This document shows positions 523 to 15,794 of a DNA stretch of 36,432 nucleotides, piece after piece. Under the pieces are notes generated by a model, which made no database searches, was not told the origin of the DNA, and worked only from the letters and a program-made list of their open reading frames with translations. The stretch is from Sphaerochaetaceae bacterium (GTDB taxonomy: Bacteria > Spirochaetota > Spirochaetia > Sphaerochaetales > Sphaerochaetaceae), in the NCBI GenBank assembly GCA_028532915.1, contig JAQQAI010000040.1, positions 1 through 36,432 on the forward strand, written 5' to 3'. Position 1 is the stretch's first letter, and every line of letters begins with the position of its first letter. The position numbers were made by a program, and so were the translations under genes.

Positions 523-1149
523 ATGTCAAAGATCATAAAACAGACCAGTTTAGCAGATAAAGTATATGACGTGTTAAAGACACAGATCCTCTCGGGAGAA
601 CTGAAGGGAGGAATGATCATCCCCGAAGAACAGCTCGCGACGCAATACGGAGTTTCCAGAACCCCCATACGAGAGGCGATCAGAAGGCTTTCCGAATACG
701 GACTGGTAATCCTCAAACCGCGCTCTCATGCCATGGTCTATAAAGTGGATGACAAGGAAGCCGAAGATATTGCGGTTGTGCGTGTCGCTCTTGAAAAACT
801 GGCAATTCAGATGATCACTCCTGACAGCCTTGAAAAACATATCGAAGAACTTTCCCGTCTTGCCGCAGACTGTCAGTATCATCTCACCCTCGGAGACAGA
901 GCACAGCTGTTCGTCAAAGACAGCCTGTTCCATCTCGAACTGGTCAAATGTGCCGAGAACGATGCTCTGTTCGATCTGTACGAACGACTCGACTCACGTG
1001 TTCAGCTTCTCAGAATCGCTCAGGACCTTTCCGACAACGAACTTTCGGACATCATCAGCCAGCACCCGTCGCTTCTCCAATACCTGAAGAAAAATGATAA
1101 AGATGCCGCTTTAAAGCTTATCGAGCATCATGTAGCCCATAACATGTGA
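523..1149 (+). CDS. GntR-family (FadR/FCD) transcriptional regulator
   Basis: A 208-residue DNA-binding regulator. Residues about 8-70 form the GntR winged helix (SRTPIREAIRRL recognition segment at 45-56). The rest is an FCD ligand domain in which D133, H137, H181 and H203 fit the usual metal-binding set. I start at 523 rather than 352 because the family homology begins at MSKIIKQ and the 57 upstream residues have no similarity. The gene is flanked by the GTATAC palindromes at 51-67 and 495-504, which suggests it controls itself and the divergent gene at the left edge. Its 3' end overlaps the convergent serine hydrolase gene by 32 bp. The ligand is unknown; FCD regulators usually sense small organic or sugar acids. 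Control of the murein salvage operon is possible but is only inferred from position. Confidence 0.88.
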   Translation: MSKIIKQTSLADKVYDVLKTQILSGELKGGMIIPEEQLATQYGVSRTPIREAIRRLSEYGLVILKPRSHAMVYKVDDKEAEDIAVVRVALEKLAIQMITPDSLEKHIEELSRLAADCQYHLTLGDRAQLFVKDSLFHLELVKCAENDALFDLYERLDSRVQLLRIAQDLSDNELSDIISQHPSLLQYLKKNDKDAALKLIEHHVAHNM

Positions 1150-2164
1150 AAAGTCTCTCGACAACATCGTTTCTGAATGATCCGATATTCCTGGGATTCT
1201 CCGTATGAAGCCGGTTGGTAAGAATCGAGACAGAGACCCGGTTCTTCCTGTTCAGATAGAGATAGGTTCCTGTGAATCCGGTATGACCGCACCCTCCGAA
1301 AGGATAGTTATCACCGAGCTGGAACCCGAGCCCTCTGTTCTCAATGTGTGCTCTCATTGCAGAATCTGCCAGTTCTGGACTGAGAAATGAAGAACATGGG
1401 TATAGATATGTTCTTGCAAGACGGCAGACATCTTCGCCGTTCGAGAACAGTCCTGCATGACCGGAGACTCCTTTAAAGTAGTAATAGCCGTTTCCGTCAT
1501 CACACTCCCCTCTGATCGCAGTATCGACAGGTCTGAATGAATCGAACGAAAGAGAAAGAGCTGCCACCATATCCATCTCGATACGATTCCCGAACTCGGT
1601 CTCAACACAGTCATACACCGCTGGATGCCAGGTAGTGTTCTGCAGCCGAAGAGGATGGATAACAAGCTCCTCGACAGCCTTGTCAAGCGAACAAGAGCAT
1701 ACCTTCTCGATTATCCTGCCCTGCAGCATGAAGTTCAGATCCGAATAGATCATTCTCTCTTTCAGAGGGTGTTCTTCAACGATGCTGGAAAGGATCTCGA
1801 AGAAATCTTCATCTCTGCGTGTATAGAAAGGGTACCAGTAATGAAGTCCGGAGCTGTGAGTGAGCAGTGAATAGACAGATATGCCGTTCAGACTTTCATG
1901 GATTTCGGGAAAAAACTGAATGAGTGTATCCTGCAACGATAGCTCATTCATCGATATCAGATGCAGGATTGCCGTCGAGGTAAACAGTTTAGTCAATGAG
2001 GCGAGATCAAAAAGGTGAGATGAAGTCAGTTTAATATGTTTCGAACCTGTATCGCCGAATACGCCTTCAAAGAAAACTCTCCCTTCTTTTTCTGCATAGA
2101 TGGAAACTCCGGTGAACAGCTTCTCAGCAATAGCCTCATTGACATAACTCTTTATCGATTCCAT
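1118..2164 (-). CDS. Beta-lactamase-fold serine hydrolase, possible muropeptide amidase
   Basis: A 348-residue member of the beta-lactamase-related family (COG1680 type). The nucleophile motif is S56-L-T-K59, Y140-S-D is the YxN-like element, and H294-T-G replaces KTG. GHAGLFS near 235-241 is a typical marker of this branch. No signal peptide is visible, so it should act in the cytoplasm. It is the last gene of the murein salvage operon and overlaps the GNAT gene by 13 bp. From memory, the Bacillus subtilis murQ cluster carries a related serine hydrolase (YbbE/AmiE) that cuts MurNAc from L-Ala. By analogy this enzyme may free peptide from imported muropeptides before AnmK acts. Esterase or D-peptidase activity is equally open. 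True antibiotic beta-lactamase activity is unlikely without export. Confidence 0.85.
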   Translation of the reverse strand: MESIKSYVNEAIAEKLFTGVSIYAEKEGRVFFEGVFGDTGSKHIKLTSSHLFDLASLTKLFTSTAILHLISMNELSLQDTLIQFFPEIHESLNGISVYSLLTHSSGLHYWYPFYTRRDEDFFEILSSIVEEHPLKERMIYSDLNFMLQGRIIEKVCSCSLDKAVEELVIHPLRLQNTTWHPAVYDCVETEFGNRIEMDMVAALSLSFDSFRPVDTAIRGECDDGNGYYYFKGVSGHAGLFSNGEDVCRLARTYLYPCSSFLSPELADSAMRAHIENRGLGFQLGDNYPFGGCGHTGFTGTYLYLNRKNRVSVSILTNRLHTENPRNIGSFRNDVVERLFTCYGLHDAR

Positions 2165-2619
2165 TTTTTCACCATGATCAGCTCATCAATTCCCTCTTTC
2201 GCAAACCCTGCAAGTCTGCCCACATTCTTATACCCATGCTTCTCATAAAACGCTATGGCATCCGAATTGAAAGAGGAAACAAGAAGAAAATAGTCACGTC
2301 TCAAAGATGCAGTTCTCTCTTCAAAAGCATCAAGAAGCGCCGATCCGATCTTTCTGCCGCGGAAATTGTGATGAACGGCTATCAGGCGAAGATAGGGAGC
2401 TGTACTGAAAGCTCCTTTCTGATCGATCCAGGCAAAACCGGCGATCTCGGATCCGACAATCGCAGTGAGAAGCAGATGATGTGAATCGAATCCACCCCGG
2501 AGGCTGTTTTCGAGAGTTGCAGCTGTAAAACCGTATTTATCACCAATAGATGAGTTCAGGACTATGTCGGCACATAAAGTGATATCTTCTTCTTTCATAT
2601 CACAGATTTCAATGTCCAT
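2152..2619 (-). CDS. GNAT family N-acetyltransferase
   Basis: A 155-residue GCN5-related acetyltransferase. The acetyl-CoA binding motif is RGRKIGSALL (about residues 89-98), preceded by the strand YLRLIAVHHNF and followed by the C-terminal AIAFYEKHGYKNVGR segment, as usual for the family. The start at 2619 is one base after the stop of the dipeptide epimerase gene. Its AAGGAG ribosome site lies inside the end of that gene, so translation is probably coupled. Substrate is unknown. In this operon it might acetylate an amino group of a murein amino acid, dipeptide or amino sugar, but nothing in the sequence proves it. Confidence 0.88.
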   Translation of the reverse strand: MDIEICDMKEEDITLCADIVLNSSIGDKYGFTAATLENSLRGGFDSHHLLLTAIVGSEIAGFAWIDQKGAFSTAPYLRLIAVHHNFRGRKIGSALLDAFEERTASLRRDYFLLVSSFNSDAIAFYEKHGYKNVGRLAGFAKEGIDELIMVKKWNR

Positions 2620-2620
2620 A

Positions 2621-3691
2621 TCACTCCTTCATCAGCAGCGGTCTCTCCGACTGCAGATCCTTTATCAGATCTTTGTCGGCTTCTATCCCCTGAGGATGCA
2701 AGGCGACACTCTGATTCTCATATACTACACCATTGAAATATGAACGGGCCAGCAGCAGCGGAGCGTCCAGATCAATGTAACTGGCCAGTGGTGCCAATGT
2801 GACGGCACTGTAGAGCCCTGCACTGCTTTCAACCATCGAACTCAGAAAGACCTTAAGATGAGCCTCACGGGCACGATCGATCAGAGCTTTGGAATATAAC
2901 GGTCCACCGCACTTGGCATTCTTCACGACGACCCCTCCCAGATGAGGTACCTTCTCAAGATACTGTTCGAGCTGCCTGATGCCGGTCACACTCTCATCGA
3001 GCACGATCGGGATAGAAGTCATTGCTGAAAGTCGTGCGATATCTTCACTCCCCGATGATAGAGGCTCCTCGATGAGTTCGACACCGATATTCTCAAATTC
3101 TCTTACCGCTGTACATGCCTCATCGTAGGTCCACCCCTGATTCGCATCAATGAACAATAAAGCTTCAGGAAGAGCTTCCCTGATCCTTTTCACACGCTCG
3201 ACATCACCGGGAATACCGCATTTGATCTTGAGTGAAGAGAAACCTGAATTCACAGCACCTCTTACCATCTCATCGATATCCTCGTTGAAAGCGATAGTGA
3301 ATGTTGTTCTGAAAGAATGTTGCCAAGAAGAGATTTTAAGCAGCGATGAAAGAGAAACGTCTCTTATCTTACTTGCCAGATCCAGTATCGCTTCCTGAAA
3401 GGCGCAGGAGGATACGGGATATTCGAATGCCGGATATTCTGAATCGACAGGATTCTCGAGAATATTTTCAATATCTTTCGCCCTCAATCGAGAAATATTG
3501 CGTATCAGGTCAGCTTTCACCTGCTGCACAGATCCCTTGTAATACGGTACGATCGGCCCCTCTCCGTATCCTGAATGATCATTCTTTTGAATCTCTATGA
3601 ATACATTATTTCTGAAACTGTATGAGCCGTGAGCTATCGTGAAAGGCGTTTTAAGCGGCAGCTCCAGGTCGAATACTTTTATGCTGATCAT
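2621..3691 (-). CDS. L-Ala-D/L-Glu dipeptide epimerase (enolase superfamily)
   Basis: A 356-residue enolase-superfamily enzyme of the muconate-lactonising subgroup. The acid/base lysines are in K155-I-K157 and near K257 (VVVKNAKCGG). Metal ligands are D182 (IDANQGW), E208 (IEEPL) and D232 (LDES). D307-L-D309 matches the DxD element that dipeptide epimerases use to bind the substrate amino group, which favours AEE over muconate or o-succinylbenzoate enzymes. The family converts L-Ala-D-Glu from murein peptides to L-Ala-L-Glu so that ordinary peptidases can use it. The gene lies between the peptide transporter and the GNAT gene, nine bases after dppF, which fits murein peptide catabolism. Other dipeptide specificities exist in the family. 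Confidence 0.88.
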   Translation of the reverse strand: MISIKVFDLELPLKTPFTIAHGSYSFRNNVFIEIQKNDHSGYGEGPIVPYYKGSVQQVKADLIRNISRLRAKDIENILENPVDSEYPAFEYPVSSCAFQEAILDLASKIRDVSLSSLLKISSWQHSFRTTFTIAFNEDIDEMVRGAVNSGFSSLKIKCGIPGDVERVKRIREALPEALLFIDANQGWTYDEACTAVREFENIGVELIEEPLSSGSEDIARLSAMTSIPIVLDESVTGIRQLEQYLEKVPHLGGVVVKNAKCGGPLYSKALIDRAREAHLKVFLSSMVESSAGLYSAVTLAPLASYIDLDAPLLLARSYFNGVVYENQSVALHPQGIEADKDLIKDLQSERPLLMKE

Positions 3692-3700
3692 CTTGAACCT

Positions 3701-4696
3701 CTATTCATAGAGGAAACAGGCCACTTCGTGCCCGGGGGAGACTTCCTTGAGCCGGGGCGGAGTGAGAGAACACTGTTTCATCGCCTTCGGACACCGTTCG
3801 ACGAACGGACAGCCTTTATGAATTTTCGAGGGAGAGGGAACATCTCCTTCCAGAATTATCCTCTTTCGTTTTCGGGCATTGATCGGGTCGGGCAGAGGCA
3901 CTGCAGAGAGAAGAGCCTGAGTATAGGGATGAAGACTGTCATGATACAGCTGCTGAGAAGATGCTGTCTCCACGATATGACCCAGATACATCACAGCTAC
4001 CCTTGAACAGAAATATTCTACGACGGCAAGGTCGTGAGCGATGAACAGGAAAGTAAGGTCGAATTGCTGCTGAAGGTCCTTGAGCAGATTGAGGATCTGC
4101 GACTGTATCGAAACGTCGAGAGCAGAAACCGGTTCATCGGCAAGTATCAGTTTAGGTTCCAGAGAAAGAGCCCGGGCGATTCCTATTCTCTGCCGCTGAC
4201 CTCCGCTGAACTCATGAGGATAACGCCCTTTGAACGTTGGCGAAAGACCGCACACATCCATCAGGCTGGTTGCCTTTGCTTCGATTTCACTTTCGGTCAG
4301 TGCAAGAAGACCTCTTTTCGCATAGATTCTCATAGGTTCAGCTATCAGATCGATCGCCCTCATTCTGGGATCAAGCGAGCTGTATGGGTCTTGAAAAACG
4401 ATCTGGAAATTCATCCGCATCTTCTGCAGGTCCTCTTTTTTCAAAGCAGTGAGATCTGTTCCTTCGAACATCACGCTTCCGGCAGTCAGCGATTGAAGCT
4501 GGGCGATGGCCATCGCCGTCGTCGATTTCCCGCATCCGGATTCGCCGACGAGTCCAAGAGATTCTCCTTTTCTGACAGAGAAGCTCACCCCGTCAACAGC
4601 CCGGATGAATCCGGCGTTCCTCTTGAAGATGATCCCTTTCTGAATAGGAAAGTGAACCTTGAGATCTTTTACTTCCAGCAATGTCTTATTTTCCAT
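3701..4696 (-). CDS. dppF: Oligopeptide/dipeptide ABC transporter ATPase (DppF/OppF type)
   Basis: A 331-residue cytoplasmic ATPase that powers peptide uptake with the DppD partner. Walker A is GESGCGKST, the signature is FSGGQRQR and Walker B is LILADEPVSALD. The C-terminal oligopeptide extension carries a cysteine set (GCPFVERCPKAMKQC plus a late VACF). I start at the ATG at 4696, preceded by GGAG six bases upstream. It overlaps the dppD stop by 11 bp (ATGGAAAATAA). The in-frame ATG at 4714 has no good ribosome site. Last transporter gene in the operon. Confidence 0.92.
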   Translation of the reverse strand: MENKTLLEVKDLKVHFPIQKGIIFKRNAGFIRAVDGVSFSVRKGESLGLVGESGCGKSTTAMAIAQLQSLTAGSVMFEGTDLTALKKEDLQKMRMNFQIVFQDPYSSLDPRMRAIDLIAEPMRIYAKRGLLALTESEIEAKATSLMDVCGLSPTFKGRYPHEFSGGQRQRIGIARALSLEPKLILADEPVSALDVSIQSQILNLLKDLQQQFDLTFLFIAHDLAVVEYFCSRVAVMYLGHIVETASSQQLYHDSLHPYTQALLSAVPLPDPINARKRKRIILEGDVPSPSKIHKGCPFVERCPKAMKQCSLTPPRLKEVSPGHEVACFLYE

Positions 4697-5687
4697 GATG
4701 CGCTCCAGTTTCATGAAGATAGCAGGCTACCTTCCAGTTCTCCTGTTCATTCAGAACATATTCGGGAGGATTGGAGGTCGCACATTTTTCCATTGCGTAC
4801 GCGCATCGCGCGTAGAACGGACACCCTTTCGGAAGATCGATGAGGTCGGGAGGTGCTCCTTCAATAGTATGCAGCCGTTCATTGTGGTCCTGGTCCAGAC
4901 GGGGGATCGAAGAAAGGAGCCCTTTCGTATAGGGATGCTGCGGTTCATAGAAAAGTCGATTCACAGGTGCTCTTTCGACTACCCGCCCGGCATACATGAC
5001 ACAGATGGTATCACACATGTCTGCTACGACACCCAGGTCGTGGGTTATCATGATCACCGAGGTTGAATTCTCTTTGGACAGTTTCTTGATCAGGTCGAGA
5101 ATCTGAGCCTGAATCGTGACGTCCAATGCTGTCGTCGGTTCATCGGCTATGAGGATATCCGGATTACACGAAAGAGCCATCGCTATCATCACCCTCTGTC
5201 TCATCCCTCCGGAGAACTGGTGGGGGTAGTCATTTGCCCTTTCCCGAGCATCAGGGATCCCTATCATCTGCAGCAGCTCGATCGCCTTTTCTTTTGCTTC
5301 CTTCTTTTTAATATCATGATGGAGCATCAGAGCTTCTGCGACCTGAACCCAGATCTTGATAACCGGATTGAGGGAAGTGAGAGGATCCTGGAAGATCATG
5401 GAAATATGTTTCCCTCTCACATTTCTGATTTCTTCCTCACTTTCTTCGAAAAGATCTTTCTTGTCATAGAGAACCTTCCCCTGCGTGATCTTGCCGGGAG
5501 GAAACTGTATGAGTTTCAATATGGAAAAGTTCGTGACGGATTTCCCGCAGCCGGATTCTCCGACTATGCCGAGAGTCTCTCCTCTATGGAGCTCGAAAGA
5601 GACATCATTGACAGCATGGACGATTCCACGCTCGGTAGTGAACTGGGTCACAAGTCCTTCTATCTGTAAAATCGGTTCAGTTTTCAA
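4686..5687 (-). CDS. dppD: Oligopeptide/dipeptide ABC transporter ATPase (DppD/OppD type)
   Basis: A peptide-transporter ATPase of about 333 residues. It has Walker A GESGCGKS, signature FSGGMRQR, Walker B ILIADEPTTALD and the cysteine-bearing C-terminal segment GCPFYARCAYAMEKC. The start is unusual. A TTG at 5687 is preceded by AGGAG with seven bases of spacing (5699-5695), and that AGGAG overlaps the stop of dppC. The in-frame ATG at 5708 lies within dppC and has no ribosome site. Homology begins at LKTEPILQIEGL, which agrees with TTG. It pairs with DppF as a heterodimeric motor. Confidence 0.9.
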   Translation of the reverse strand: MKTEPILQIEGLVTQFTTERGIVHAVNDVSFELHRGETLGIVGESGCGKSVTNFSILKLIQFPPGKITQGKVLYDKKDLFEESEEEIRNVRGKHISMIFQDPLTSLNPVIKIWVQVAEALMLHHDIKKKEAKEKAIELLQMIGIPDARERANDYPHQFSGGMRQRVMIAMALSCNPDILIADEPTTALDVTIQAQILDLIKKLSKENSTSVIMITHDLGVVADMCDTICVMYAGRVVERAPVNRLFYEPQHPYTKGLLSSIPRLDQDHNERLHTIEGAPPDLIDLPKGCPFYARCAYAMEKCATSNPPEYVLNEQENWKVACYLHETGAHHGK

Positions 5688-5697
5688 ACGCCTACTC

Positions 5698-6537
5698 CTA
5701 ACGTACATTTCGTAATCGGGGATCAAGGATATCACGTAATCCGTCACCCAGCAGATTGAATCCCAGCACTAACGTCACGATCGCCAGTCCCGGATAGATG
5801 GCAGTCCAGGGAGCCAGCATCATCACCTTACGGGCACTGCTGAGCATGTTTCCCCAAGATGGTTCAGGAGGCTGTATTCCCAGTCCCAGGAAGCTCAGAG
5901 CTGATTCAAGAAGTATTGCAACAGACAGCGACAGCGATATCTGGACTATGATCGGTGCGATACTGTTGGGAAGAAGGTGGTTAAAAAGGATGTAGGAGCT
6001 GCCGGCCCCGTTGGAACGGGCTGCCCGGACGAACTCGTTAGATTTGAGTGCGATGATCGCTCCCCGTGAAATCCTTGCGAACTGGGGAATATAGACGATT
6101 CCGATAGCGATGATGATGTTCGCGTTGTTCTCTCCCAGTATCGCCATGATGAAGATCGCCAGCAGAAGTGACGGGAAAGAGAAAAGGATATCGGCGATTC
6201 TCATGATCACATTGTCCCATCGCCCGCCGAGAAATCCTGCCCAGATTCCCATAAGAATTCCGAATGTGGCCCCCAGCAGTGTTGCGAGAATACTGATCAT
6301 AAGAGAAACCGCGCTTCCTTTCATCACCCGTGAGAGGATATCTCTTCCGAATTCGTCGGTACCGAAAATATGACCGGAGGACAGTGAAGGCTTTTGGAGC
6401 ATCAGTTCCGGATTCATCTCCATCGGATCGAATGGAAGCCAGAAGAAGGAAACAACAATGATCACCACATACAGAGAGATGATGATCAATCCGGCCAAGG
6501 CAATCCTGTTCTTTACTAGTCTTGTCATCGTGTTCAT
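5698..6537 (-). CDS. dppC: Peptide ABC transporter permease (DppC type)
   Basis: A 279-residue inner-membrane permease. An N-terminal membrane helix (IALAGLIIISLYVVIIVVSFF) is followed by a short outside segment containing GTDEFGRDILSRV, then five further hydrophobic segments. The cytoplasmic coupling loop (about FVRAARSNGAGSSYILFNHLLPNSI) is the EAA-type contact with the ATPases. It ends NLLGDGLRDILDPRLR, typical of DppC/OppC. It lies 16 bp after dppB. An ATG nine bases further in is an alternative start. Confidence 0.92.
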   Translation of the reverse strand: MNTMTRLVKNRIALAGLIIISLYVVIIVVSFFWLPFDPMEMNPELMLQKPSLSSGHIFGTDEFGRDILSRVMKGSAVSLMISILATLLGATFGILMGIWAGFLGGRWDNVIMRIADILFSFPSLLLAIFIMAILGENNANIIIAIGIVYIPQFARISRGAIIALKSNEFVRAARSNGAGSSYILFNHLLPNSIAPIIVQISLSLSVAILLESALSFLGLGIQPPEPSWGNMLSSARKVMMLAPWTAIYPGLAIVTLVLGFNLLGDGLRDILDPRLRNVR

Positions 6538-6553
6538 AGATCACCAACCTTTA

Positions 6554-7507
6554 TCAGTCAGAAAGCCGAATTCTCGGATCGGCTAACGCATATACTATAT
6601 CTGTCACCAGATTCACCAATACAAAGATCGTCGCTACGATCATCACGACAGCCTGAATGATCGGATAATCGCGCTGATAAATCGCATAGAGTGAAAGCCT
6701 TCCCATGCCGGGCAGAGCGAACACCTCTTCGATCACGATCGCACCGCTGAGCAGATATCCGGCATTGAAGCCTGTCACCGTGATCACAGGAAGGATTCCG
6801 TTCTTCAGAGCATGGGTGTAGATCACGCTCTTTCTCTTCAATCCTTTCGCCTTTGCCGTTCTGATGTAATCCATTTGAAACACCTCCAGCATGCTTGTGC
6901 GGGTATATCTCATCACTACCGCGGCAAAACCGATCCCGATCGCAAGAGAGGGAAAGAACAGCATCTTGATATTCCTCAGAGGAGCCTCGAGAAAACCTAC
7001 ATAGTTTCCCATGGGAATCCAGCCATTGAATCCGGAAAAAGCCATCACCATCAAAGCTGCCAGCCAGAACTGGGGCAGAGAGAGTCCGAGAAGGCCAAGG
7101 ATTCTCATAAGGAAGTCCCCAAAAGTGTTCTGTCTCAATGAAGAGGCGATCCCGAGCGGAATTCCAATAAGAAGAGCAAGGATAAGAGAAAAGAGAGTCA
7201 ATTCCAGACTGAGAGGCAGTCGTGAAAGGATGTCAGGGAGCACAGGTCTTCCTGTACGCAGAGAATAGCCGAAATCGCCTTTCAGGATATCCTGCATCCA
7301 TTCAAGATATAATACCGGTACGGGCTTATCCTCTCCGAACAGCTTCTCTAATTCCTCCATCATTTCAGGAGTTGCTTCGACCTGTGTTCCCATGTACATC
7401 TCCAGGGCGGTCCCCGGGATGAGTCTTACAAGAAAGAACACGATCAATGAAACACCTAAAAGGACAGGAATGAGAGTCAATAATCTTCTTACAATAAATC
7501 TAAGCAC
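6554..7507 (-). CDS. dppB: Peptide ABC transporter permease (DppB type)
   Basis: A 317-residue inner-membrane permease with about six hydrophobic segments. It has the family N-terminus MLRFIVRRLLTLIPVLLGVSLIVF and the coupling loop YIRTAKAKGLKRKSVIYTHALKN. The start is GTG at 7507 with GAGG six bases upstream. It pairs with DppC to form the channel. It is separated from dppA by a 70-bp spacer that holds a large hairpin, so permease expression is probably lower than that of the binding protein. Confidence 0.92.
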   Translation of the reverse strand: MLRFIVRRLLTLIPVLLGVSLIVFFLVRLIPGTALEMYMGTQVEATPEMMEELEKLFGEDKPVPVLYLEWMQDILKGDFGYSLRTGRPVLPDILSRLPLSLELTLFSLILALLIGIPLGIASSLRQNTFGDFLMRILGLLGLSLPQFWLAALMVMAFSGFNGWIPMGNYVGFLEAPLRNIKMLFFPSLAIGIGFAAVVMRYTRTSMLEVFQMDYIRTAKAKGLKRKSVIYTHALKNGILPVITVTGFNAGYLLSGAIVIEEVFALPGMGRLSLYAIYQRDYPIIQAVVMIVATIFVLVNLVTDIVYALADPRIRLSD

Positions 7508-7522
7508 ACTTCACCTCTAAAT

Positions 7523-7570
7523 CTGAGTATAAGGTGCCCCTTCTATATGAAAGAGGCACCTTTATCTCAG
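7523..7570 (-). terminator. Intercistronic hairpin between dppA and dppB
   Basis: Directly after the dppA stop, CTGAG/CTCAG outer arms enclose AAGGTGCC (7531-7538) paired with GGCACCTT (7555-7562), with small bulges. There is no U-run, so I read it as a transcript-stabilising or partial attenuating hairpin rather than a full terminator. Such elements usually keep binding-protein mRNA more abundant than permease mRNA. Confidence 0.65.
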
Positions 7571-7577
7571 AATTCAA

Positions 7578-9116
7578 TTATTGTACGTCAGTTTGTGTCA
7601 CGTAATACAGGCTTCCGTTTCCGACCTGCTTGAACCCGGTAACTCGTTCGGAAAGAACATGAGATTCACTCGGGCTGTACAGGAAGATGACCGGAGCTTT
7701 CTCGCTCAACACCTTCTGTACTTCATTGTAGGTCTTCTTTCTCTCGGCGGGAACAGTCTGGCTTCTTCCCAGATCGAGAAGCTCGTCAGTCTTCGCATCC
7801 GCGAACATGAAGTTGTTCACTCCGCCTGTGCTGTGCAGGGTCCGATAGAGGAATCTGTCGGGTTCGCCGCTGCCGCCGCGGATTTCAACCATGGAATCGA
7901 AATCACGTTTCACCCAGCGGTCAATATAGACACCCCATTCGACCACGACAAGATTGGCTGTAACTCCGATATTCTTCAGTTCACTCTGTATGACCTGAGC
8001 AACTGCGAGGCCCCCTTCATATGTAGCAGAACATACGATATCGAAACTGAATCCGTCAGGATAACCAGCTTCAGCAAGCAACGCTTTTGCTTTCTCGTAA
8101 TTGACCTCGTTCACCGGAAGTTCATCGAGAGGAAGAGCCCAATCGGTTGCTGCTACGGGAATAGGTCCTGTAGGAGTTCCCATTCCAAACTCCGCCATCA
8201 TGACGATTTCGTCTCTGTCTATTGCCAGAGCAAGAGCACGCCTGACTCTTTCATCTGTGAAAGGTTCCCTTGTGGTATTGAAACCGAAGGTTCTCACATT
8301 GATACCGGGTTTGCTTTTGACTACCACACCTGAAGTATTCTTCGCCTGTCTGATCGTAGCTCCGTCGCTGATAGTCGCGATATCGAGGTCTCCTGATTTC
8401 ACCCCGGCCAAAAGCGATGCTGCTTCAGGAATGACCCTGAAGATGACTTTATCGACTTTCGGCTCTCCTTCAATGAAATAGTCAGGATTTTTCACCAGTG
8501 TCATCGAGTTGTCGGCGACCCATTCATCGAGCATGAAAGGACCGGTTCCTACAGCGACTTTCTGAAGATTGCCATATTCTTCAACAGCTTCTTTCGGTAC
8601 AATCGAGAGATTGTTGCTCGTCAGCGAATCGAGTAGCGATGCTAAAGGAGCCGACAATGTCAGCTTGACAGTGTATTGATCGACCACTTCTACCGATTCC
8701 ACCAGAGCCAGGTAGGATTTTCCGGGAGATGCTGTTTTCGGATCCATCACACGCTCAAGAGAGTATTTGACATCATCTGCGACGAGTTCTCTTCCATTAT
8801 GGAATTTAACACCCTCTCTGAGATGGAAGATGTATGTAAGGTTATCAGGGATTTCCCAGGACTCTGCCAGATCGGGAACGACAACCAGATTCTCATCCAG
8901 ACGGACAAGACGGTTGTACATCAAATCGATCCTTCTGTGAGAAGAAAAAGCTGTCACTATATGAGGATCAAGGCCGATAGCCTCCTGATCCACCCCGATC
9001 GTCAGCACTTTTTCCTCAGTACCCTGGACTTCTTCCGTCCCCGTCGCGAACAGCCCCGCAACTGAGATCGCACTGATCAATACAATCGCAATCAACACCA
9101 TAGAAAGTTTTTTCAC
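7578..9116 (-). CDS. dppA: Peptide-binding protein, extracellular solute-binding family 5 (DppA/OppA type)
   Basis: A 512-residue periplasmic binding protein. The N-terminus MKKLSMVLIAIVLISAISVAG is a signal peptide. Cleavage is probably around FATG. No lipobox cysteine is present, so it may be soluble in the periplasm. The family 5 fold is shown by the DLAESWEIPDNLTYIFHLREGVKFHNG segment near residue 85 and VRRALALAIDRDEIV near residue 290. The start is GTG at 9116 with AAGGAGG six bases upstream. It sits 43 bp after anmK in the same operon, so its likely cargo is murein-derived peptide or muropeptide. The binding pocket cannot be read by eye. Confidence 0.9.
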   Translation of the reverse strand: MKKLSMVLIAIVLISAISVAGLFATGTEEVQGTEEKVLTIGVDQEAIGLDPHIVTAFSSHRRIDLMYNRLVRLDENLVVVPDLAESWEIPDNLTYIFHLREGVKFHNGRELVADDVKYSLERVMDPKTASPGKSYLALVESVEVVDQYTVKLTLSAPLASLLDSLTSNNLSIVPKEAVEEYGNLQKVAVGTGPFMLDEWVADNSMTLVKNPDYFIEGEPKVDKVIFRVIPEAASLLAGVKSGDLDIATISDGATIRQAKNTSGVVVKSKPGINVRTFGFNTTREPFTDERVRRALALAIDRDEIVMMAEFGMGTPTGPIPVAATDWALPLDELPVNEVNYEKAKALLAEAGYPDGFSFDIVCSATYEGGLAVAQVIQSELKNIGVTANLVVVEWGVYIDRWVKRDFDSMVEIRGGSGEPDRFLYRTLHSTGGVNNFMFADAKTDELLDLGRSQTVPAERKKTYNEVQKVLSEKAPVIFLYSPSESHVLSERVTGFKQVGNGSLYYVTQTDVQ

Positions 9117-9159
9117 GTTCTTCCTCCTTGTGAACTAATAAAAAGGTTCCCTTCAGTCG

Positions 9160-10380
9160 TTATAAGGTAATCATACCCAACACCTTCGGTTCGGTCGCTC
9201 CTGTAACTGCTGGCAAGTTACCTGTTCTTCCCATCAGAGATTCATATGCCATAACGGCAAATGCCATGGCTTCACGTGCATCTTCAGGAATACCGAAATC
9301 TCTGGTAGTCCTGACGCATATGTTCTGCGGCAGACGCTGCCGTATCATATCGAGTAATGTATCATTCAGCGCACCGCCTCCGCCGATGATCACAGTCGAA
9401 ATCGGATGCTTCGGCAGGATAAAATCGATATATGACCGGCAGATTGTCTCTGCTGTGAATGCTGTGGCTGTCGCCAGAGTGTCGGCATAAGAAAGATCTC
9501 TTTCTCTGCATGAATTGATGAATTTCAGGGCAAAATCTTTTCCGTAGACTTCTCTGCCGGTACTTTTGGGAGGTCCTTTATGAAAATAGGAATCTTCATC
9601 GAAGAACTTCTGAAGGATCTGTTCGTTCACAATACCCTGCCCGGCGACCGCTCCTCCTTCGTCATACCTGAGTTTTCCATCAGAGAAATATTCCACTACA
9701 GCATCCATGATCATGTTTCCCGGACCTGTATCGAAGGCATACACTCCCTTTTCTCCGGTCTCTTTCGGCAATACCGTCGCATTCCCGATTCCCCCGATAT
9801 TCTGAACGATCCGCCCTTCCCGATCTGAACCGAACATCATATAGTCGGTAAACGGTGCCAATGGAGCACCTTCACCTCCGGCCGCCATATCTGCCGAACG
9901 GAAATCGCTTACGACCGGGATGCCGGTAAGATGTTTAAGATAGGAAGCATTGCCGAGCTGCAACGTCCCCTTCACATTCACAGTCTCTGTGAACGGTGCG
10001 GGAAACGGCGTCTCGACGGGGGAATGCCATACCGTCTGTCCATGCATTCCTATAGCATCAATATCTTCCGCATTGAAATCACTTTTTGCCAGCAATGCTT
10101 TAACAGCCGATGCATACCAGTAGGACAGTCCGCAGTGTACCAATACCAGTTCATCGATTTTTGACCGTTCAATCTGACACAGCGCATTGATCCTATCTCT
10201 CATCTGTTGTGTATAAGGAAGATAATAATGATCTACTAGTGCTATCGACCTGATCATCTTCTCATCAGATTCAATCGAGACGAGAACAGCATCCACTCCG
10301 TCCAGCGAAGTCCCTGACATCAGTCCGATCATGAGGTGTTCTGTAAGCTTCTTCCGGTTATCTGAATCGTTCTTTTTCAT
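9160..10380 (-). CDS. anmK: Anhydro-N-acetylmuramic acid kinase
   Basis: AnmK opens 1,6-anhydroMurNAc and phosphorylates it with ATP to give MurNAc-6-phosphate, the substrate of MurQ encoded next door. Family markers are IGLMSGTSLDGVDAVL, QTVWHSP, NIGGIGNATVLP, DTGPGNMIMD and GGGGALND. The start is uncertain. ATG 10380 is only a few bases after the predicted transcript start, which would make it almost leaderless. ATG 10392 lies within the promoter. ATG 10332, next to IGLMSGT, is possible but has only a distant GGAAG. The reading frame also extends to a TTG at 10419 that forms part of the -35 box and cannot be the start from this promoter. It is the first gene of the salvage operon, divergent from murQ. 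Confidence 0.9.
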   Translation of the reverse strand: MKKNDSDNRKKLTEHLMIGLMSGTSLDGVDAVLVSIESDEKMIRSIALVDHYYLPYTQQMRDRINALCQIERSKIDELVLVHCGLSYWYASAVKALLAKSDFNAEDIDAIGMHGQTVWHSPVETPFPAPFTETVNVKGTLQLGNASYLKHLTGIPVVSDFRSADMAAGGEGAPLAPFTDYMMFGSDREGRIVQNIGGIGNATVLPKETGEKGVYAFDTGPGNMIMDAVVEYFSDGKLRYDEGGAVAGQGIVNEQILQKFFDEDSYFHKGPPKSTGREVYGKDFALKFINSCRERDLSYADTLATATAFTAETICRSYIDFILPKHPISTVIIGGGGALNDTLLDMIRQRLPQNICVRTTRDFGIPEDAREAMAFAVMAYESLMGRTGNLPAVTGATEPKVLGMITL

Positions 10381-10390
10381 ATACTGACTC

Positions 10391-10419
10391 ATTATATGAT
10401 ACAATATTTCAAATCTCAA
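10391..10419 (-). promoter_or_regulatory. Strong promoter of the anmK-dpp operon
   Basis: On the minus strand TTGAGA (10419-10414), exactly 17 bp, then TATAAT (10396-10391): a near-consensus sigma-70 promoter. TTGTATCATATAA (10404-10392), one mismatch from a symmetric sequence and sharing the TTGTAT half-site of the GTATAC palindromes, covers the -10 box. Confidence 0.75.
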
Positions 10420-10524
10420 TAAAAATATTAAAATATTATTTCTTTACATTACATTTACCAAATGCTACCATTACACTACATTTCTATTCCTTTTAAAGAA
10501 AATGAAACTGTTGGAGAAACCTTG

Positions 10525-11463
10525 ATGATTGATACGACCATTACCCAGGACATGCTGGATCTGTTCACCACGGAACAGCGAAATGAAAAAACCTCTCATA
10601 TTGATGAGATGAGTACCCGTGAGATAGTCGAGGTAATCAATGATGAAGATAAAACAGTTCCATATGCTGTCGAAAAACAGCTTGACCAGATCTCTGCTCT
10701 GATTGAGGATGTCGTGCTGTCATTCAAAAATGGCGGGCGTCTTTTCTATATAGGGGCGGGAACGAGCGGAAGACTCGGTGTACTTGATGCATCAGAATGT
10801 CCTCCTACGTTCGGGGTCAGCTCCTCCATGGTTCAGGGACTGATAGCAGGAGGAAGAGAGGCTCTGGTACGATCGATCGAGAACGCCGAGGATGAGGTCG
10901 AGAGCGGAGAAAAGGAACTCGATTCGGTCAATTTCACCTCAAAAGATGTGCTGGTAGGAATCACCGCGAGCGGGCAGGCTCCGTATGTTCTCGGAGCTAT
11001 GATGAAAGCAAAAAGGATGGGAGCCGTCGTCGGAGCCATCAGCTGTAACAGAGGCTCGAAGACTTTTGAACATGCGACTCATTCGATCTATCTTGACGTA
11101 GGCCCGGAAGTCGTCACAGGCTCGACCAGAATGAAAGCCGGTACAGCTCAGAAACTCGTCCTTAACATGATCACTACAACAAGTATGATCAGGCTGGGAA
11201 AAGTCTACCACAACCTCATGGTCGATCTCACTCCCGTCAACAAAAAACTTATCGAGCGGTCGAAACGTCTGATCAGACAGGCGACAGGATGTTCTCTCAA
11301 AGAGGCGGAAAAAGCTTTCACTGAATCAGGGAAAAAACCAAAAATCGCTATAATCATGGTATTATTGAACATCAGCAGAGAAGACGCTGAATTGCTGGAG
11401 AATAATGACACGAAACCGATTTCGGAAATACTCAAACAATACAAAAGCGGGATTTCCGAATAA
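10525..11463 (+). CDS. murQ: N-acetylmuramic acid 6-phosphate etherase
   Basis: MurQ splits the lactyl ether of MurNAc-6-phosphate to give GlcNAc-6-phosphate and D-lactate in the cytoplasm. The 312-residue protein has the SIS sugar-phosphate fold with GAGTSGRLGVLDASECPPTFG (the conserved Glu lies in ASECPPT) and the family signature TGSTRMKAGTAQKLVLNM. The chosen ATG at 10525 has GGAG (10513-10516) eight bases upstream. The longer reading frame from 10462 lacks a ribosome site and adds unrelated residues. It is divergent from anmK, whose product feeds it, and is followed 23 bp later by an RpiR regulator. Confidence 0.95.
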   Translation: MIDTTITQDMLDLFTTEQRNEKTSHIDEMSTREIVEVINDEDKTVPYAVEKQLDQISALIEDVVLSFKNGGRLFYIGAGTSGRLGVLDASECPPTFGVSSSMVQGLIAGGREALVRSIENAEDEVESGEKELDSVNFTSKDVLVGITASGQAPYVLGAMMKAKRMGAVVGAISCNRGSKTFEHATHSIYLDVGPEVVTGSTRMKAGTAQKLVLNMITTTSMIRLGKVYHNLMVDLTPVNKKLIERSKRLIRQATGCSLKEAEKAFTESGKKPKIAIIMVLLNISREDAELLENNDTKPISEILKQYKSGISE

Positions 11464-11486
11464 AATAAATTGCTAAAGGGTATCGC

Positions 11487-12356
11487 ATGGAACAGGAAAA
11501 AGTGATTGAAGGGGCTCTGGTTGCAGTTAACGCACGATTGGATACGTTAAGTGAATCCGAGAGAAAGATCGCCGATTACATTTTCAGAGAACCAAAGAAA
11601 GCGATTCATCTCAATGTGAGAGAACTGGCAAAACAGAGCGGATCATCACAGGCGGCAGTGATCAGATTCTGTAAACGCATCGGCTTTGACAGCTTCAGTA
11701 CCTTCAAGATACGCCTCGCAAGAGATGTCTTCAGAGACTCTGATGAACGTTATATTCCAGATCTTGATCTTGAATCGGAGATATCACCGGCGAAGGTAGT
11801 AAAAGGAGTGATAGACAGAACACAGCGCTCACTTTCAGCACTGGAATCAACTCTCGATCCCTCCAGCGTCCAGGAAGCAGTTGATCTGATGCTAAACGCC
11901 ACTTCCACTATACTCTTCGGTGTGGGTGCTTCCGGAGTAGTCGCCTACGATTTCATGCAGAAACTCACCCGGTTGGGACTTCCGGTATACTACACTTCCG
12001 ATACGGACCTTCAGCTGACTGCAGGTTCGACGATACAAAAGAATCAGATTGCTATGATCATCTCCTATTCGGGAGAGAACAAAAACATGATAGAAGTGGC
12101 ACGACTGGTGAAAAGCCGTAAAATCCCTCTGATAACCATCACCATGGACAGCAGAAACACGATCCGGTCTTATGCTGACACAGCTCTTCTGGTCCCTTCA
12201 ACGGAGAAGCTCTACAGGCAGGGAGCAGCGACGAGCAGGATCAACCAGCTCGCCGTCATCGATATCCTCTACTCTCTGATGGTATCGAACAATCTTGATG
12301 ATTCGATCACAGCCATAGAATCCACGATGAAAGCCACCCACAAGAAAAACGGATAG
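11487..12356 (+). CDS. RpiR/MurR-family transcriptional regulator
   Basis: A 289-residue sugar-phosphate sensing regulator. The N-terminal RpiR helix-turn-helix spans about residues 10-85 (NVRELAKQSGSSQAAVIRFCKRIGF). The C-terminal SIS domain contains FGVGASGVVAYDFMQKL. It starts with AAAGGG six bases upstream of ATG and is co-transcribed with murQ. By analogy with MurR, it probably senses MurNAc-6-phosphate and controls murQ and the divergent anmK operon. No operator could be identified with confidence in the 10420-10510 gap. Its gene ends four bases from the convergent cupin gene. Confidence 0.9.
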   Translation: MEQEKVIEGALVAVNARLDTLSESERKIADYIFREPKKAIHLNVRELAKQSGSSQAAVIRFCKRIGFDSFSTFKIRLARDVFRDSDERYIPDLDLESEISPAKVVKGVIDRTQRSLSALESTLDPSSVQEAVDLMLNATSTILFGVGASGVVAYDFMQKLTRLGLPVYYTSDTDLQLTAGSTIQKNQIAMIISYSGENKNMIEVARLVKSRKIPLITITMDSRNTIRSYADTALLVPSTEKLYRQGAATSRINQLAVIDILYSLMVSNNLDDSITAIESTMKATHKKNG

Positions 12357-12769: not shown

Positions 12770-13603
12770 TTATCCTTTCACTGCGCCGGCAGTCATTCCC
12801 GTGATCAACTGTTTCTGAATAAAGAAGAAGAGTATGATGACAGGTAGAGCACTCAGTACACCGCCTGCTGTGAGAAGCCCCCACTCGATCTGATACTCCC
12901 CTATCATATTCTGCAATGCGATCGGAATGGTCCTCACTTTCGAACTGGTAAGGATCGCCGCATACAGGTATTCGTTCCATGATGTGATGAACACGTAGAT
13001 ACCCGTCGAAACGATACCCGGCATCGCTACAGGAAGGACGACCCTGAGCATCGCTCCTATTCTAGAACATCCGTCTATCTGGGCAGCTTTATCAAGATCC
13101 TGCGGAATGGCATTGAAGAAACTGGTCAGCATCCACGTGGAAAAAGGGATAGTGAATGTAGAGTAGGCTATCACTAAAGCAAAATGGGTATCCATCAGCC
13201 CAAGGACCCTCATCATGATGAACAGAGGGACTATCAGAAGCATAATGGGAAACATGTTGATGACCAGAAACTGCATCAGCAGTACTTTGCTCCCTTTGAA
13301 TTTGAACCGGGAAAAACTGTATGAGGCAGGAACCGTGATGGACAATCCGACCAGAGCAGTCATCAATGCGATCGCCATCGAATCGATCATATTCCGGGCA
13401 AAATCGAGTTTGGAAAACAATCTTGTATAGTTCTCGGTAGTCGGGTGTTCCGGGAAGAATCTGAAATCAGGCCTGTACAATTCTTTCTCTATTGTTATCG
13501 AAGAGATGAAAGTCCAGATGTACGGACCGATGGCAAACAGCACAATCAGAAGTACAGGAAGATAGATTGTCAGCAGTCGTTTGAACGTGTGGTGTCTTTT
13601 CAT
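12770..13603 (-). CDS. CUT1 sugar ABC transporter permease (MalG type)
   Basis: A 277-residue inner-membrane permease with six hydrophobic segments. The coupling motif is PQDLDKAAQIDG...RVVLPVAMPGI, the EAA loop of carbohydrate permeases. Its GGAGG ribosome site overlaps the end of the partner permease gene (stop at 13607-13605, one base gap). No ATPase is encoded in this operon, so it must share a general MsmK/UgpC-type ATPase encoded elsewhere. Confidence 0.9.
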   Translation of the reverse strand: MKRHHTFKRLLTIYLPVLLIVLFAIGPYIWTFISSITIEKELYRPDFRFFPEHPTTENYTRLFSKLDFARNMIDSMAIALMTALVGLSITVPASYSFSRFKFKGSKVLLMQFLVINMFPIMLLIVPLFIMMRVLGLMDTHFALVIAYSTFTIPFSTWMLTSFFNAIPQDLDKAAQIDGCSRIGAMLRVVLPVAMPGIVSTGIYVFITSWNEYLYAAILTSSKVRTIPIALQNMIGEYQIEWGLLTAGGVLSALPVIILFFFIQKQLITGMTAGAVKG

Positions 13604-13604
13604 C

Positions 13605-14486
13605 TTAACGCTCCTCCTTCAACAGATTTCTCACATACCCGGAGACTATGATCATAAGCAGTATCGTCAGAAGTACAGCGAGAGCTGATGAATAACCGAA
13701 GTCCATCCCCTTGTAGGCTTTGAAATATGAATAGACAGGAAGTGTGTAGGTACTGTATCCGGGACCTCCCGCCGTCATAACCACAATGACATCCAGAGAG
13801 TTTGCAACCCAGATGATCCTCAGCAGCAGCGTGGTGAGAATCACAGGTTTCAGCATCGGAATCGTGATTCGGAAGAACTGCTGAGAAGTTGAAGCTCCGT
13901 CGATGCGGGCGGCCTCGTACAGTTCATCAGGAATCGCCTGAAGACCTGCAAGAAGCATGATTGCGAAGAAAGGGAAGCCCTGCCAGACCAGTGCGAACAT
14001 GATGGAAGGCAGTGCAAGCTGCATATCTGCGAGAAACGGAATGAACTGATCGATCCATCCGAGCCTGAACAGGATCTGATTGATCAATCCGAAATTACCG
14101 TCATACATCCAGCGCCACATGAGAGCCGTGATGACCGACGGGGTGACCCAGGGAATTAAAATGAGAGACCGCGCTATACCACGACCGATGAATCTCTTGT
14201 TCAGCAGTAAAGCTGTGATGAATCCCAGAAGAAACTGAAATGTGATGATACCGACGATCCAGATCACGGTGTTCTTCAGAGAAGAATAGAACAGAGGATC
14301 GGAGAATATCGTCTTGTAGTTCTCGAATCCGTTGTATCGGACCTCTGTAGGCTTGTAGACGATATAGTTCATAAAACTGTATCCGATCGTCCTGAACATC
14401 GGAATGAAGATGATCGCCAAAGTCACAATCATCGCTGGTGTAATCATCTTATATGGCAATGTATCTCTTCTTTTGATTTTATTCAT
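13605..14486 (-). CDS. CUT1 sugar ABC transporter permease (MalF type)
   Basis: A 293-residue inner-membrane permease. N-terminal helix PAMIVTLAIIFIPMFRTIGYSFMNY and five more membrane segments. EAA loop IPDELYEAARIDGASTSQQFFRITIPML. It sits 69 bp after the binding-protein gene, with AGGTGA before its ATG. With the MalG-type partner it forms the membrane channel of a carbohydrate importer. Confidence 0.9.
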   Translation of the reverse strand: MNKIKRRDTLPYKMITPAMIVTLAIIFIPMFRTIGYSFMNYIVYKPTEVRYNGFENYKTIFSDPLFYSSLKNTVIWIVGIITFQFLLGFITALLLNKRFIGRGIARSLILIPWVTPSVITALMWRWMYDGNFGLINQILFRLGWIDQFIPFLADMQLALPSIMFALVWQGFPFFAIMLLAGLQAIPDELYEAARIDGASTSQQFFRITIPMLKPVILTTLLLRIIWVANSLDVIVVMTAGGPGYSTYTLPVYSYFKAYKGMDFGYSSALAVLLTILLMIIVSGYVRNLLKEER

Positions 14487-14555
14487 ACGCTGTCACCTGT
14501 AGATGACGCAGGACCGAGGATTACTCCTTAGCCCCGCGTACCTTCAATCGTTTAA

Positions 14556-15794
14556 TTATTCACTGAAATGATCTTCGATCTGCTGCATCATCTGTTCACT
14601 CGTGATCTGACCTGCGAATGCCTGCTGCATGAGTGCGGGCCACAAAGATTCAACGAATTCGGCAGTACCGGAATGTGCCGGAAGCACGCCGGCAAAGTCG
14701 GCTGAATCTGTAGTAGCTTTCAGGAATCTGTCAGCATCAGAAGTGGCATTGCTCTTATTGATCGAAACCTGTCCGCTCGATTTCTGCCAGATAGCATTGT
14801 TCTCAGCTTCTGCAAGGAAGGAGACCCATTTGAATGCGGCATCAGGAACTTCGGTGGCTGCGAACACAGCATTCTCTTCATCCCCGAACGAAGTCCATGC
14901 ACCTTCTGTTCCCATTGGCACAGGAGCTGCCGAGATCTTATCGCCAAGTGCTTCTTCAAGAGTCTTTGCGCTTCCCAGGTGGTGGATGGTCATAGCTGTC
15001 TTTCCTGAAACCATGTTTGCTATGATCTCTTTAAATCCGTCACTAGGAGTCGTCGGAGGACTGACTTTGTGTTTTCTGTACAGATCGATAAACCACTGGT
15101 TGGCGGCAATCGCCTTATCGGTTGTCAGACCGGAATTACCGTCCTCATCAAAGAACTGAGCACCGCTGGACAATACGAATGTACCCCACCAGTCATGTCC
15201 GCCTCTCGCTCCGCGGATACCGAATCCGTACACATCTACGATTCCGTCCCCATCGGTGTCACGTGTGAGTTTTTTGGCTACATCAAGGAATTCCTCCCGT
15301 GTCTTCGGCAGTTCGAGACCTAACTGCTCGAACATATCAGTTCTGTAGTAAAGATAGAGGATAACCATCTGAAGAGGCATATAATACTGGTGACCATCAG
15401 AATATTTGGTAAGTTCCCAGACCTTGTCGTAGATATCATCTTTTCCGTCCCAGGAAGCGATGTAATCATCAAGAGGAAGAAGAGCTCCCATCTCTACCAG
15501 CTGGGGCTGCCACCACAGTTTGACCTGTGCGACATCTGGCGGGTACCCTCCGGCTATCGCAGTGAGCAGTTTCTGGTTGTACACATCCCATGAAATCCTT
15601 TCCGGCTCAATGACGATACCGGGATTCTCCGCCTCGAACTTCTCGATCAGCGGGTTCAACGCTGTTTCGGGATCATCGAAATGATACCAGAACTTGACAG
15701 TCTGTACCTCAGGTTCACTCTCTTTTCCTCCTTGAGCGTAAACCATAGAGACCATCATCACTAATACCATGATAAAAACGAATGTTTTTTTCAT
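14556..15794 (-). CDS. CUT1 sugar-binding protein, extracellular solute-binding family 1
   Basis: A 412-residue periplasmic sugar-binding protein. Signal peptide MKKTFVFIMVLVMMVSMVYAQGG, probably cut after the second Ala-type site (VYA-QGG); no lipobox cysteine. Family 1 features include VKFWYHFDDPETALNPLIEKFE and VAQVKLWWQPQLVEMGALLPLDDY. Residues 179-190 (DTDGDGIVDVYG) form an EF-hand-like calcium loop seen in some members of this family. GGAGG precedes the ATG. Located 12 bp after the transketolase C-subunit gene, which ties the transporter to that enzyme. Cargo is unknown. Confidence 0.9.
   Translation of the reverse strand: MKKTFVFIMVLVMMVSMVYAQGGKESEPEVQTVKFWYHFDDPETALNPLIEKFEAENPGIVIEPERISWDVYNQKLLTAIAGGYPPDVAQVKLWWQPQLVEMGALLPLDDYIASWDGKDDIYDKVWELTKYSDGHQYYMPLQMVILYLYYRTDMFEQLGLELPKTREEFLDVAKKLTRDTDGDGIVDVYGFGIRGARGGHDWWGTFVLSSGAQFFDEDGNSGLTTDKAIAANQWFIDLYRKHKVSPPTTPSDGFKEIIANMVSGKTAMTIHHLGSAKTLEEALGDKISAAPVPMGTEGAWTSFGDEENAVFAATEVPDAAFKWVSFLAEAENNAIWQKSSGQVSINKSNATSDADRFLKATTDSADFAGVLPAHSGTAEFVESLWPALMQQAFAGQITSEQMMQQIEDHFSE

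Follow-up and report, generated by a model that had tools for sequence, protein, structure and literature searches.

A spirochaete anmK-dpp-serine hydrolase locus as a proposed module for import and catabolism of anhydro-muropeptides

The stretch of DNA analysed here (hereafter the window) is the whole of contig 40 (36,432 bases) from the genome of a Sphaerochaetaceae bacterium, assembled to 2.64 megabases in 96 contigs with 97% completeness. Between positions 1118 and 12356, it carries a run of minus-strand genes composed, in the order of transcription, of anmK, dppABCDF and the genes for a dipeptide epimerase, a GNAT acetyltransferase and a serine hydrolase, while murQ and rpiR are divergent on the plus strand. 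Since the gaps among the minus-strand genes are only -50 to +70 bases, their packing is operon-like. An earlier reading of the letters alone, referred to below as the original prediction, had described the same genes in the same arrangement, and all of them were located where it had placed them.

The two genes for muramic sugar catabolism are assigned with confidence. AnmK, the anhydro-N-acetylmuramic acid (anhydro-MurNAc) kinase (9160..10332, minus strand, the start being taken from relatives and from the promoter position), scores 433.6 bits against NF007148, above the cut-off of 387, and 330 bits against PF03702. MurQ, the MurNAc-6-phosphate etherase (10525..11463, plus strand), likewise exceeds the cut-offs of NF003915 (402 versus 168) and TIGR00274 (368 versus 302). 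It is followed by the RpiR/MurR-type regulator (11487..12356, plus strand; PF01418 and PF01380), which adjoins MurQ in the seven other full loci described below, in one of them as a mere fragment at the contig end. The transporter has the make-up of a Dpp/Opp-type ATP-binding cassette (ABC) importer, all of it encoded on the minus strand: a DppA-type periplasmic binding protein with a signal peptide-like N-terminus (7578..9116; SBP_bac_5, PF00496, 327.6 bits), the permeases DppB (6554..7507) and DppC (5698..6537), and the DppD/OppD-type (4686..5747) and DppF/OppF-type (3701..4714) ATPases, both with PF00005 and PF08352 (ABC_tran and oligo_HPY). The permeases are assigned by position and by their identity to the seven other full loci (79-92% for DppB and 78-89% for DppC) rather than by a library scan. 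The true start of DppD probably lies further inside its frame, considering that full-length relatives align from residue 16-26. As to the DppA equivalog NF043070, the binding protein reaches only 178.7 bits versus a cut-off of 1005. The run is completed, on the same strand, by the proposed L-Ala-D/L-Glu epimerase of the enolase superfamily (2621..3691; PF13378, MR_MLE domains), the GNAT acetyltransferase (2152..2619; PF13508/PF00583) and the serine hydrolase (1118..2164; PF00144, 137 bits).

Conservation of this gene order among related spirochaetes had been named beforehand as a test of the idea, and the idea survived it. The complete order, including the divergent murQ-rpiR pair, is present in eight genomes of the family (G000, G091, G092, G106, G114, G115, G088 and G111); in G088 and G111 the locus is split over two contigs, and its continuity is presumed. 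The transporter is strongly conserved across the full loci, with DppA at 70-83% identity to the window in addition to the permeases, and the enzymes are much less alike (40-50% for the hydrolase, 38-44% for the epimerase and 46-53% for the GNAT). AnmK itself is found in 32 of the 139 genomes of the order, 31 of which exceed the cut-off, and neither AnmK nor a DppA orthologue was found in G089, a genome of the same genus, where the best DppA match is 35%. A second type of anmK locus is also apparent: 21 of the 34 loci retrieved for anmK, for fragments of it and for its partner contigs encode sugar-type ABC components, which share 22-31% identity with their window counterparts. In L077, a locus of this type that we inspected closely, NagZ, NamZ and another GNAT adjoin anmK. 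G106 has both types, a Dpp-type locus (L071) and a sugar-ABC-type locus (L083). A separate arrangement is seen in G112 (L074, 1758-2753, and L038), where anmK precedes a hydrolase relative that contains one in-frame TGA and no dpp genes are present on the 5 kilobase (kb) contig, possibly a decaying remnant.

To sample the hydrolase more widely, the GTDB species genomes were scanned with two short peptide patterns derived from its alignment, a procedure that misses relatives without the patterns. The scan yielded 93 stretches and 38 relatives, which by title belong to spirochaetes (11, among them Sphaerochaeta halotolerans and Sphaerochaeta sp. MAG3), Bacillota groups (26) and one bacterium. 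In the sequence retrieved on either side, 10 kb at most, AnmK accompanies 30 of the 38 hydrolases, MurQ 21, a GNAT relative 18 and RpiR 14. Five of the eight loci without AnmK (L100, L103, L105, L114 and L128) lie on contigs ending at the side where AnmK would be expected; in L115, L125 and L127, there is no AnmK within about 5-10 kb on each side. A Dpp-type transporter is encoded in 26 of the 38 loci. Its DppA belongs to the window's lineage in 23 of them, counting L112, whose DppA is a fragment only and stands outside the tree described below, while two loci (L100 and L103) are cut before dppA and L111 has a DppA of another lineage; 21 of the 30 AnmK-bearing loci share the window's lineage. 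The linkage holds within the order as well, where eight of nine strong hydrolase matches lie within 10 kb of AnmK and the ninth (G088) is on a separate contig. As a control, just one (G093) of 32 weaker S12 matches, 13 of which are in AnmK-bearing genomes, is found within that distance. The association of anmK, hydrolase and dpp genes therefore recurs in two phyla, Spirochaetota and Bacillota, and in several Bacillota loci the GNAT gene directly adjoins AnmK.

The binding protein itself follows this association. A tree of 71 DppA proteins places 28 of the 29 copies associated with AnmK or the hydrolase in a single clade (SH-aLRT 99) that includes none of the 42 sampled paralogues, L111 being the sole linked copy outside. 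The same clade is recovered with supports of 100/98 in a smaller bootstrapped tree of 52 rows. Both trees are midpoint-rooted and contain some long branches; the paralogues come from eight Sphaerochaetaceae and ten further genomes, and L112 and other matches with fewer than 300 aligned residues, as well as L065 and L071 (same genomes as L101 and L095), were left out, with five near-identical rows also removed from the larger tree. Six of the ten further genomes belong to Bacillota and carry a Dpp-type locus; in all six, the hydrolase-adjacent copy is the best match to the window DppA. Searching 392 Spirochaetota genomes with DppA (E<=1e-100) returned seven matches, six of them with AnmK adjacent. 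Four (G000, G091, G388 and G481) had already been found via the hydrolase, and three are new: G489 and G495 with AnmK, and G397 without. By comparison, AnmK is within 1.5 kb of none of the 41 paralogue loci examined, a set that leaves aside four near-duplicates (L159, L165, L172 and L173). G489 and G495, which belong to another family, carry the parts in a rearranged form (L220 and L221), with an epimerase-like gene, a distant hydrolase-like gene (26-27%), MurQ, AnmK, DppABCDF, GNAT, a NagZ-like gene and RpiR. In G397 (L219), the DppA orthologue (77%) has dppBCDF as neighbours, along with two GNAT genes and one that is NamZ-like.

The AlphaFold2 model of the serine hydrolase (predicted local distance difference test score 95.6, predicted template-modelling score 0.94) adopts the class C beta-lactamase/S12 fold over the full length, the best VIA match having Z 34.7 and a root-mean-square deviation of 2.4 over 311 residues. 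We abandoned reading a function from the fold, as Foldseek and VIA gave near-equal scores for an acyltransferase, esterases, a D-amino-acid amidase, DD-peptidases and class C beta-lactamases; the AmiE structure was absent among the fold matches listed, to which we attach no weight. In an alignment of 34 hydrolases, from which L106, L107, L111, L128 and L131 were excluded as truncated, split or of doubtful start, the residues S56, K59, Y140, S141, D142, H294 and G296 are invariant, and position 295 is T in 22, S in nine and another residue in three sequences. The hydrolase thus has the S12/PF00144 fold with S-x-x-K, Tyr and H/K-T/S-G elements as expected of an AmiE-type amidase, AmiE itself having the S12 fold. 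It lacks the secretion signal expected of that type, as none of the 34 sequences has a hydrophobic N-terminus or signal peptide by a crude hydropathy test. Because the enzyme is cytoplasmic, is encoded beside AnmK and occurs in a genome with no match to the AmpD family, it is most simply predicted to be an anhydro-MurNAc-L-Ala amidase. That a serine hydrolase is the missing amidase had been put forward in the original prediction, and both the AnmK linkage and the lack of a PF01510 match lend it comparative support.

In the epimerase, the KxK motif (155/157), D182, E208, D232, K257 and the D307-L-D309 sequence line up with E. coli YcjG, the full set looked for in a dipeptide epimerase; we take these to be the catalytic and metal-ligand residues. 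The best relatives in the PDB include 1jpm and 1jpd, labelled L-Ala-D/L-Glu epimerase, and the score against the dipeptide epimerase equivalog NF011708 is 107.7 bits, below the cut-off of 343. As for the GNAT protein, a PDB sequence search gave weak general matches only, which do not indicate a substrate. Its recurrence near AnmK, including the different GNAT in the sugar-ABC type, suggests that it is a real step of the pathway. A glucosamine/glucosaminide acetyltransferase of Clostridium acetobutylicum is cited in connection with the cell wall (Reith and Mayer 2011, in the reference list of PMC4974736), and an anhydro-MurNAc N-deacetylase has been reported from Agrobacterium, according to the consulted part of PMC10838918. 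Our guess would be that the GNAT re-acetylates de-N-acetylated amino sugars.

We also looked for the remaining functions of murein recycling elsewhere in the genome. Amidase_2 (PF01510), the AmpD type, has no match in the window genome and matches in two of 27 genomes, PF01520 and other amidase families not having been searched; the remark that no AmpD homologue is present thus extends from the locus to the genome for this family. The only PF01510 match among the eight full-locus genomes is in G088 (C422, L146), on a contig of 3 kb, next to a frame resembling a DNA adenine methylase by eye, and is perhaps phage-borne. AmpG (TIGR00901) has no match in the window genome, and of the 27 genomes five gave weak matches and none exceeded the cut-off, which only two of 14 control genomes reach. 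Two GH3 matches were detected in the window genome, one of which is NagZ-like, a 561-residue open frame away from the locus with 102.7 bits versus a cut-off of 207. The sugar branch could therefore be completed by this enzyme, and LdcA (PF02016) and NlpC/P60 (PF00877) have no match in the window genome. Complete breakdown inside the cell, as originally proposed, accordingly finds backing for the sugar branch, with the NagZ-like protein encoded elsewhere and below its cut-off, and not, as far as PF02016 and PF00877 show, for the trimming of longer stem peptides.

The original prediction had further suggested that a Sphaerochaeta-like host, reported to lack classical penicillin-binding proteins (PBPs), may scavenge the walls of other bacteria, recycling of its own wall being the alternative. 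The absence of PBPs, reportedly found in a 2012 study by Caro-Quintero, was dropped for the host because the window genome encodes one transpeptidase (PF00905) that also has a PBP dimerisation domain. One PF00905 match is present in each of the eight full-locus genomes; across the order, 59 of the 139 genomes have one each and 80, some of them incomplete, have none. A single transpeptidase is similarly reported for Sphaerochaeta coccoides in the consulted part of PMC4423922. Five AnmK-bearing genomes have no PF00905 match (G025, G069, G103, G121 and G125), and these would be more promising as wall scavengers.

The interval separating anmK from murQ contains a block that most of the 12 spirochaete loci aligned have in common. 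It corresponds to a divergent promoter/operator-like region (10391..10448) in which a TTGAGA-17-TATAAT site on the minus strand (10419-10391) is accompanied, as judged by eye, by TTTGAAATATT-like half sites in opposite directions. The anmK promoter-like site has 11 of 12 matches and is the top-scoring such site across the 11.9 kb scanned, where promoter-like sites as a class number 14 versus 13.6 in shuffles, i.e. what chance would give. A 21-base portion of the conserved block occurs a single time in the window, with none expected. On the other side, the promoter scan and the alignment of loci indicate a murQ promoter-like site, TTTACA-17-TACCAT (10443..10471, plus strand). Because the sigma-70-like promoter and the conserved block occupy 10391-10448, AnmK most likely starts near 10332 rather than at 10419, where its frame has the first start codon. 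From the same arrangement we infer that a common regulator may act at the block.

On this comparative evidence we consider it probable that the locus is an ABC-importer-fed module for anhydro-muropeptide import and catabolism, with a cytoplasmic S12 hydrolase in the role of AmpD. DppA would capture anhydro-MurNAc-peptides in the periplasm and DppBCDF would import them, as the linkage and the phylogeny suggest. The S12 hydrolase would then cleave the muramyl lactyl-L-Ala amide in the cytoplasm, performing the task of AmpD with a beta-lactamase fold. From the established roles of their families, AnmK would convert the freed anhydro-MurNAc to MurNAc-6-phosphate and MurQ would convert the latter to N-acetylglucosamine (GlcNAc)-6-phosphate, while the epimerase, in its family role, would turn the released L-Ala-D-Glu into L-Ala-L-Glu for peptidases. 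The GNAT might re-N-acetylate amino sugars that have lost the acetyl group, GlcNAc on the cargo, if any, would be removed by the NagZ-like GH3 encoded elsewhere, and the RpiR/MurR protein may govern both divergent promoters via the conserved sites between them. Direct import of anhydro-muropeptides by the Dpp-type transporter was the core of the original prediction, and it gains support from the linkage and the DppA clade.

Several observations weigh against this interpretation. The fold of the hydrolase is common to esterases, DD-peptidases and beta-lactamases, and its nearest NCBIfam family, YfeW/PBP4B (NF002968), is matched with 106.8 bits versus a cut-off of 385. The epimerase was matched in merely eight of the 38 hydrolase loci, and its top NCBIfam score is to the N-acetyl-D-Glu racemase DgcA, a family matched by all eight epimerase members, at 160 bits and below the threshold of 400. 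A sugar-type ABC system replaces Dpp in five of the 38 loci (L109, L115, L121, L130 and L132), L111 has its DppA of other lineage, S12 is weakly matched next to DppA in one paralogue locus (L208), and G397 has neither AnmK nor hydrolase in the 19.5 kb fetched; the G397 transporter may import MurNAc-peptides rather than anhydro-MurNAc-peptides. The window itself contains a sugar-type ABC importer just past rpiR (12770-15794), which could carry the muramic sugar separately. Finally, no enzyme trimming the peptide to L-Ala-D-Glu was found in the window genome via PF02016 and PF00877, M14 not having been searched. Either another family performs the trimming or the cargo is already short, in which case the hydrolase and the epimerase would be sufficient.

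The strongest competitor, which we regard as unlikely, is that the importer carries free murein peptides, that anhydro-MurNAc enters otherwise, for instance through a sugar ABC importer, and that the hydrolase, as a cytoplasmic peptidase, degrades the imported peptides. Dpp/Opp-family transporters are classically peptide carriers, and E. coli takes up free murein peptides through MppA/Opp and Dpp. S12 members include DD- and D-peptidases, the substrates of the epimerase are free dipeptides, and a sugar-type importer adjoins the window locus, as such components do in many anmK regions of the family. However, no match to the window's sugar-type genes was found in five of the other full loci when these were read out to 20 kb (L061, L065, L066, L069 and L071), the DppA clade tracks AnmK together with the hydrolase in two phyla, and the hydrolase remains near AnmK even where clade Dpp genes were not seen (L109, L119, L121, L124, L130 and L132).

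A different scheme would make the GNAT, the epimerase-like enzyme and the hydrolase, then a deacylase, a route from D- to L-amino acids via N-acyl intermediates that merely uses murein D-Glu; the N-succinylamino-acid racemase and DgcN/DgcA systems work through such intermediates. DgcA being the best NCBIfam score of the epimerase and the GNAT adjoining it speak for this scheme, but the unmet DgcA cut-off, the alignment of the DxD and other residues with YcjG, the presence of 1jpm and 1jpd among the best PDB relatives and the occurrence of hydrolase and GNAT without a matched epimerase in several loci make it quite improbable. It is more improbable still that a general peptide transporter and unrelated enzymes have come to lie beside anmK and murQ by chance. 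SBP_bac_5 proteins are indeed numerous, with seven DppA-like matches in the window genome, yet the order is kept over large divergence, the DppA clade in the tree sample consists of such loci only, and the AnmK adjacency of the DppA orthologues in the phylum search (six of seven) contrasts with that of the paralogue loci (0 of 41).

For the anhydro-muropeptide module, the closest precedent is the YejBEF-YepA system of Agrobacterium tumefaciens, by which ABC import of anhydro-muropeptides has been demonstrated in a bacterium without AmpG (PMC9790009, as consulted in part). Hence the principle of ABC import is already known. Both systems would combine a specialised binding protein with an ABC transporter of the peptide family and use no AmpG, but YepA, according to the same text, is unique to Alphaproteobacteria and encoded apart from its transporter, and the amidase is AmpD. 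In the window, by contrast, the binding protein, permeases, ATPases, kinase and serine hydrolase are encoded together, YepA being compared here by description only. The murQ-murR-murP-amiE-nagZ-ybbC cluster of B. subtilis resembles the window in combining MurQ, a MurR-type regulator and a MurNAc-L-Ala amidase, AmiE, encoded with murQ, murR, murP and nagZ; AmiE and NagZ act extracellularly and MurNAc enters by the phosphotransferase system (PTS), as the consulted part of PMC5061867 describes. The window hydrolase differs in having no signal peptide, and the window locus in ABC import and a sugar route via AnmK. With AmiE compared by description only, the secreted enzyme could be regarded as a functional analogue of the window hydrolase.

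Two arrangements of E. coli are also comparable. YfeW (PBP4B), an S12 relative with 28% identity, is encoded directly after murQ-murP with murR opposite, but it has a signal peptide-like N-terminus, transport is by PTS and no anmK is present in the stretch shown. The recycling pathway of AmpG, AmpD, NagZ, LdcA and AnmK with YcjG-MpaA shares AnmK, MurQ and the epimerase chemistry with the window, whose genome differs in having no AmpG, PF01510 or PF02016 match. AmiR of Caulobacter was rejected as a model of the amidase for being AmpD-like and zinc-dependent, another kind of enzyme, as stated in the consulted part of PMC13046382.

We recognised no published description of an AnmK-Dpp-hydrolase locus among the titles and abstract beginnings listed from the open-licence literature. 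Within that literature, three features appear to be new: a DppA clade dedicated to the locus, an S12 hydrolase in the place of AmpD, and the occurrence in both Spirochaetota and Bacillota. Whether these amount to a third muropeptide-uptake pathway beside AmpG and YejBEF-YepA, comprising the DppA clade, a cytoplasmic beta-lactamase-fold amidase and AnmK and common to the two phyla via transfer or old descent, we judge to be evenly balanced; in the window genome, with no LdcA or NlpC/P60 match, its natural cargo could be a short anhydro-muramyl dipeptide, completing the chain of hydrolase, epimerase, AnmK and MurQ. AmpG is apparently absent from Gram-positives, according to the consulted part of PMC6448482. 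If correct, the proposal would provide Gram-positive Bacillota and spirochaetes with an uptake route for anhydro-muropeptides. It lends itself to testing with few purified proteins, since the operon is compact, encodes its own binding protein and includes a putative cytoplasmic amidase of an unexpected type. It could also bear on which microbes remove host-stimulating muropeptides, as many carriers are titled gut or rumen Clostridia.

Next to the locus, a GntR/FCD regulator gene (352-1149) converges on the hydrolase gene and overlaps its end by about 31 bases, and the other full loci have no GntR match at the corresponding place. From the translations, by eye, the region 12361-36410 encodes a cupin, the sugar ABC importer, a split transketolase, GntR and LacI regulators and an Rbs-like ABC importer, together with an M24-like protein, a hydroxyacid dehydrogenase, a helicase with a PLD domain, a membrane pyrophosphatase and a radical-SAM-like protein.

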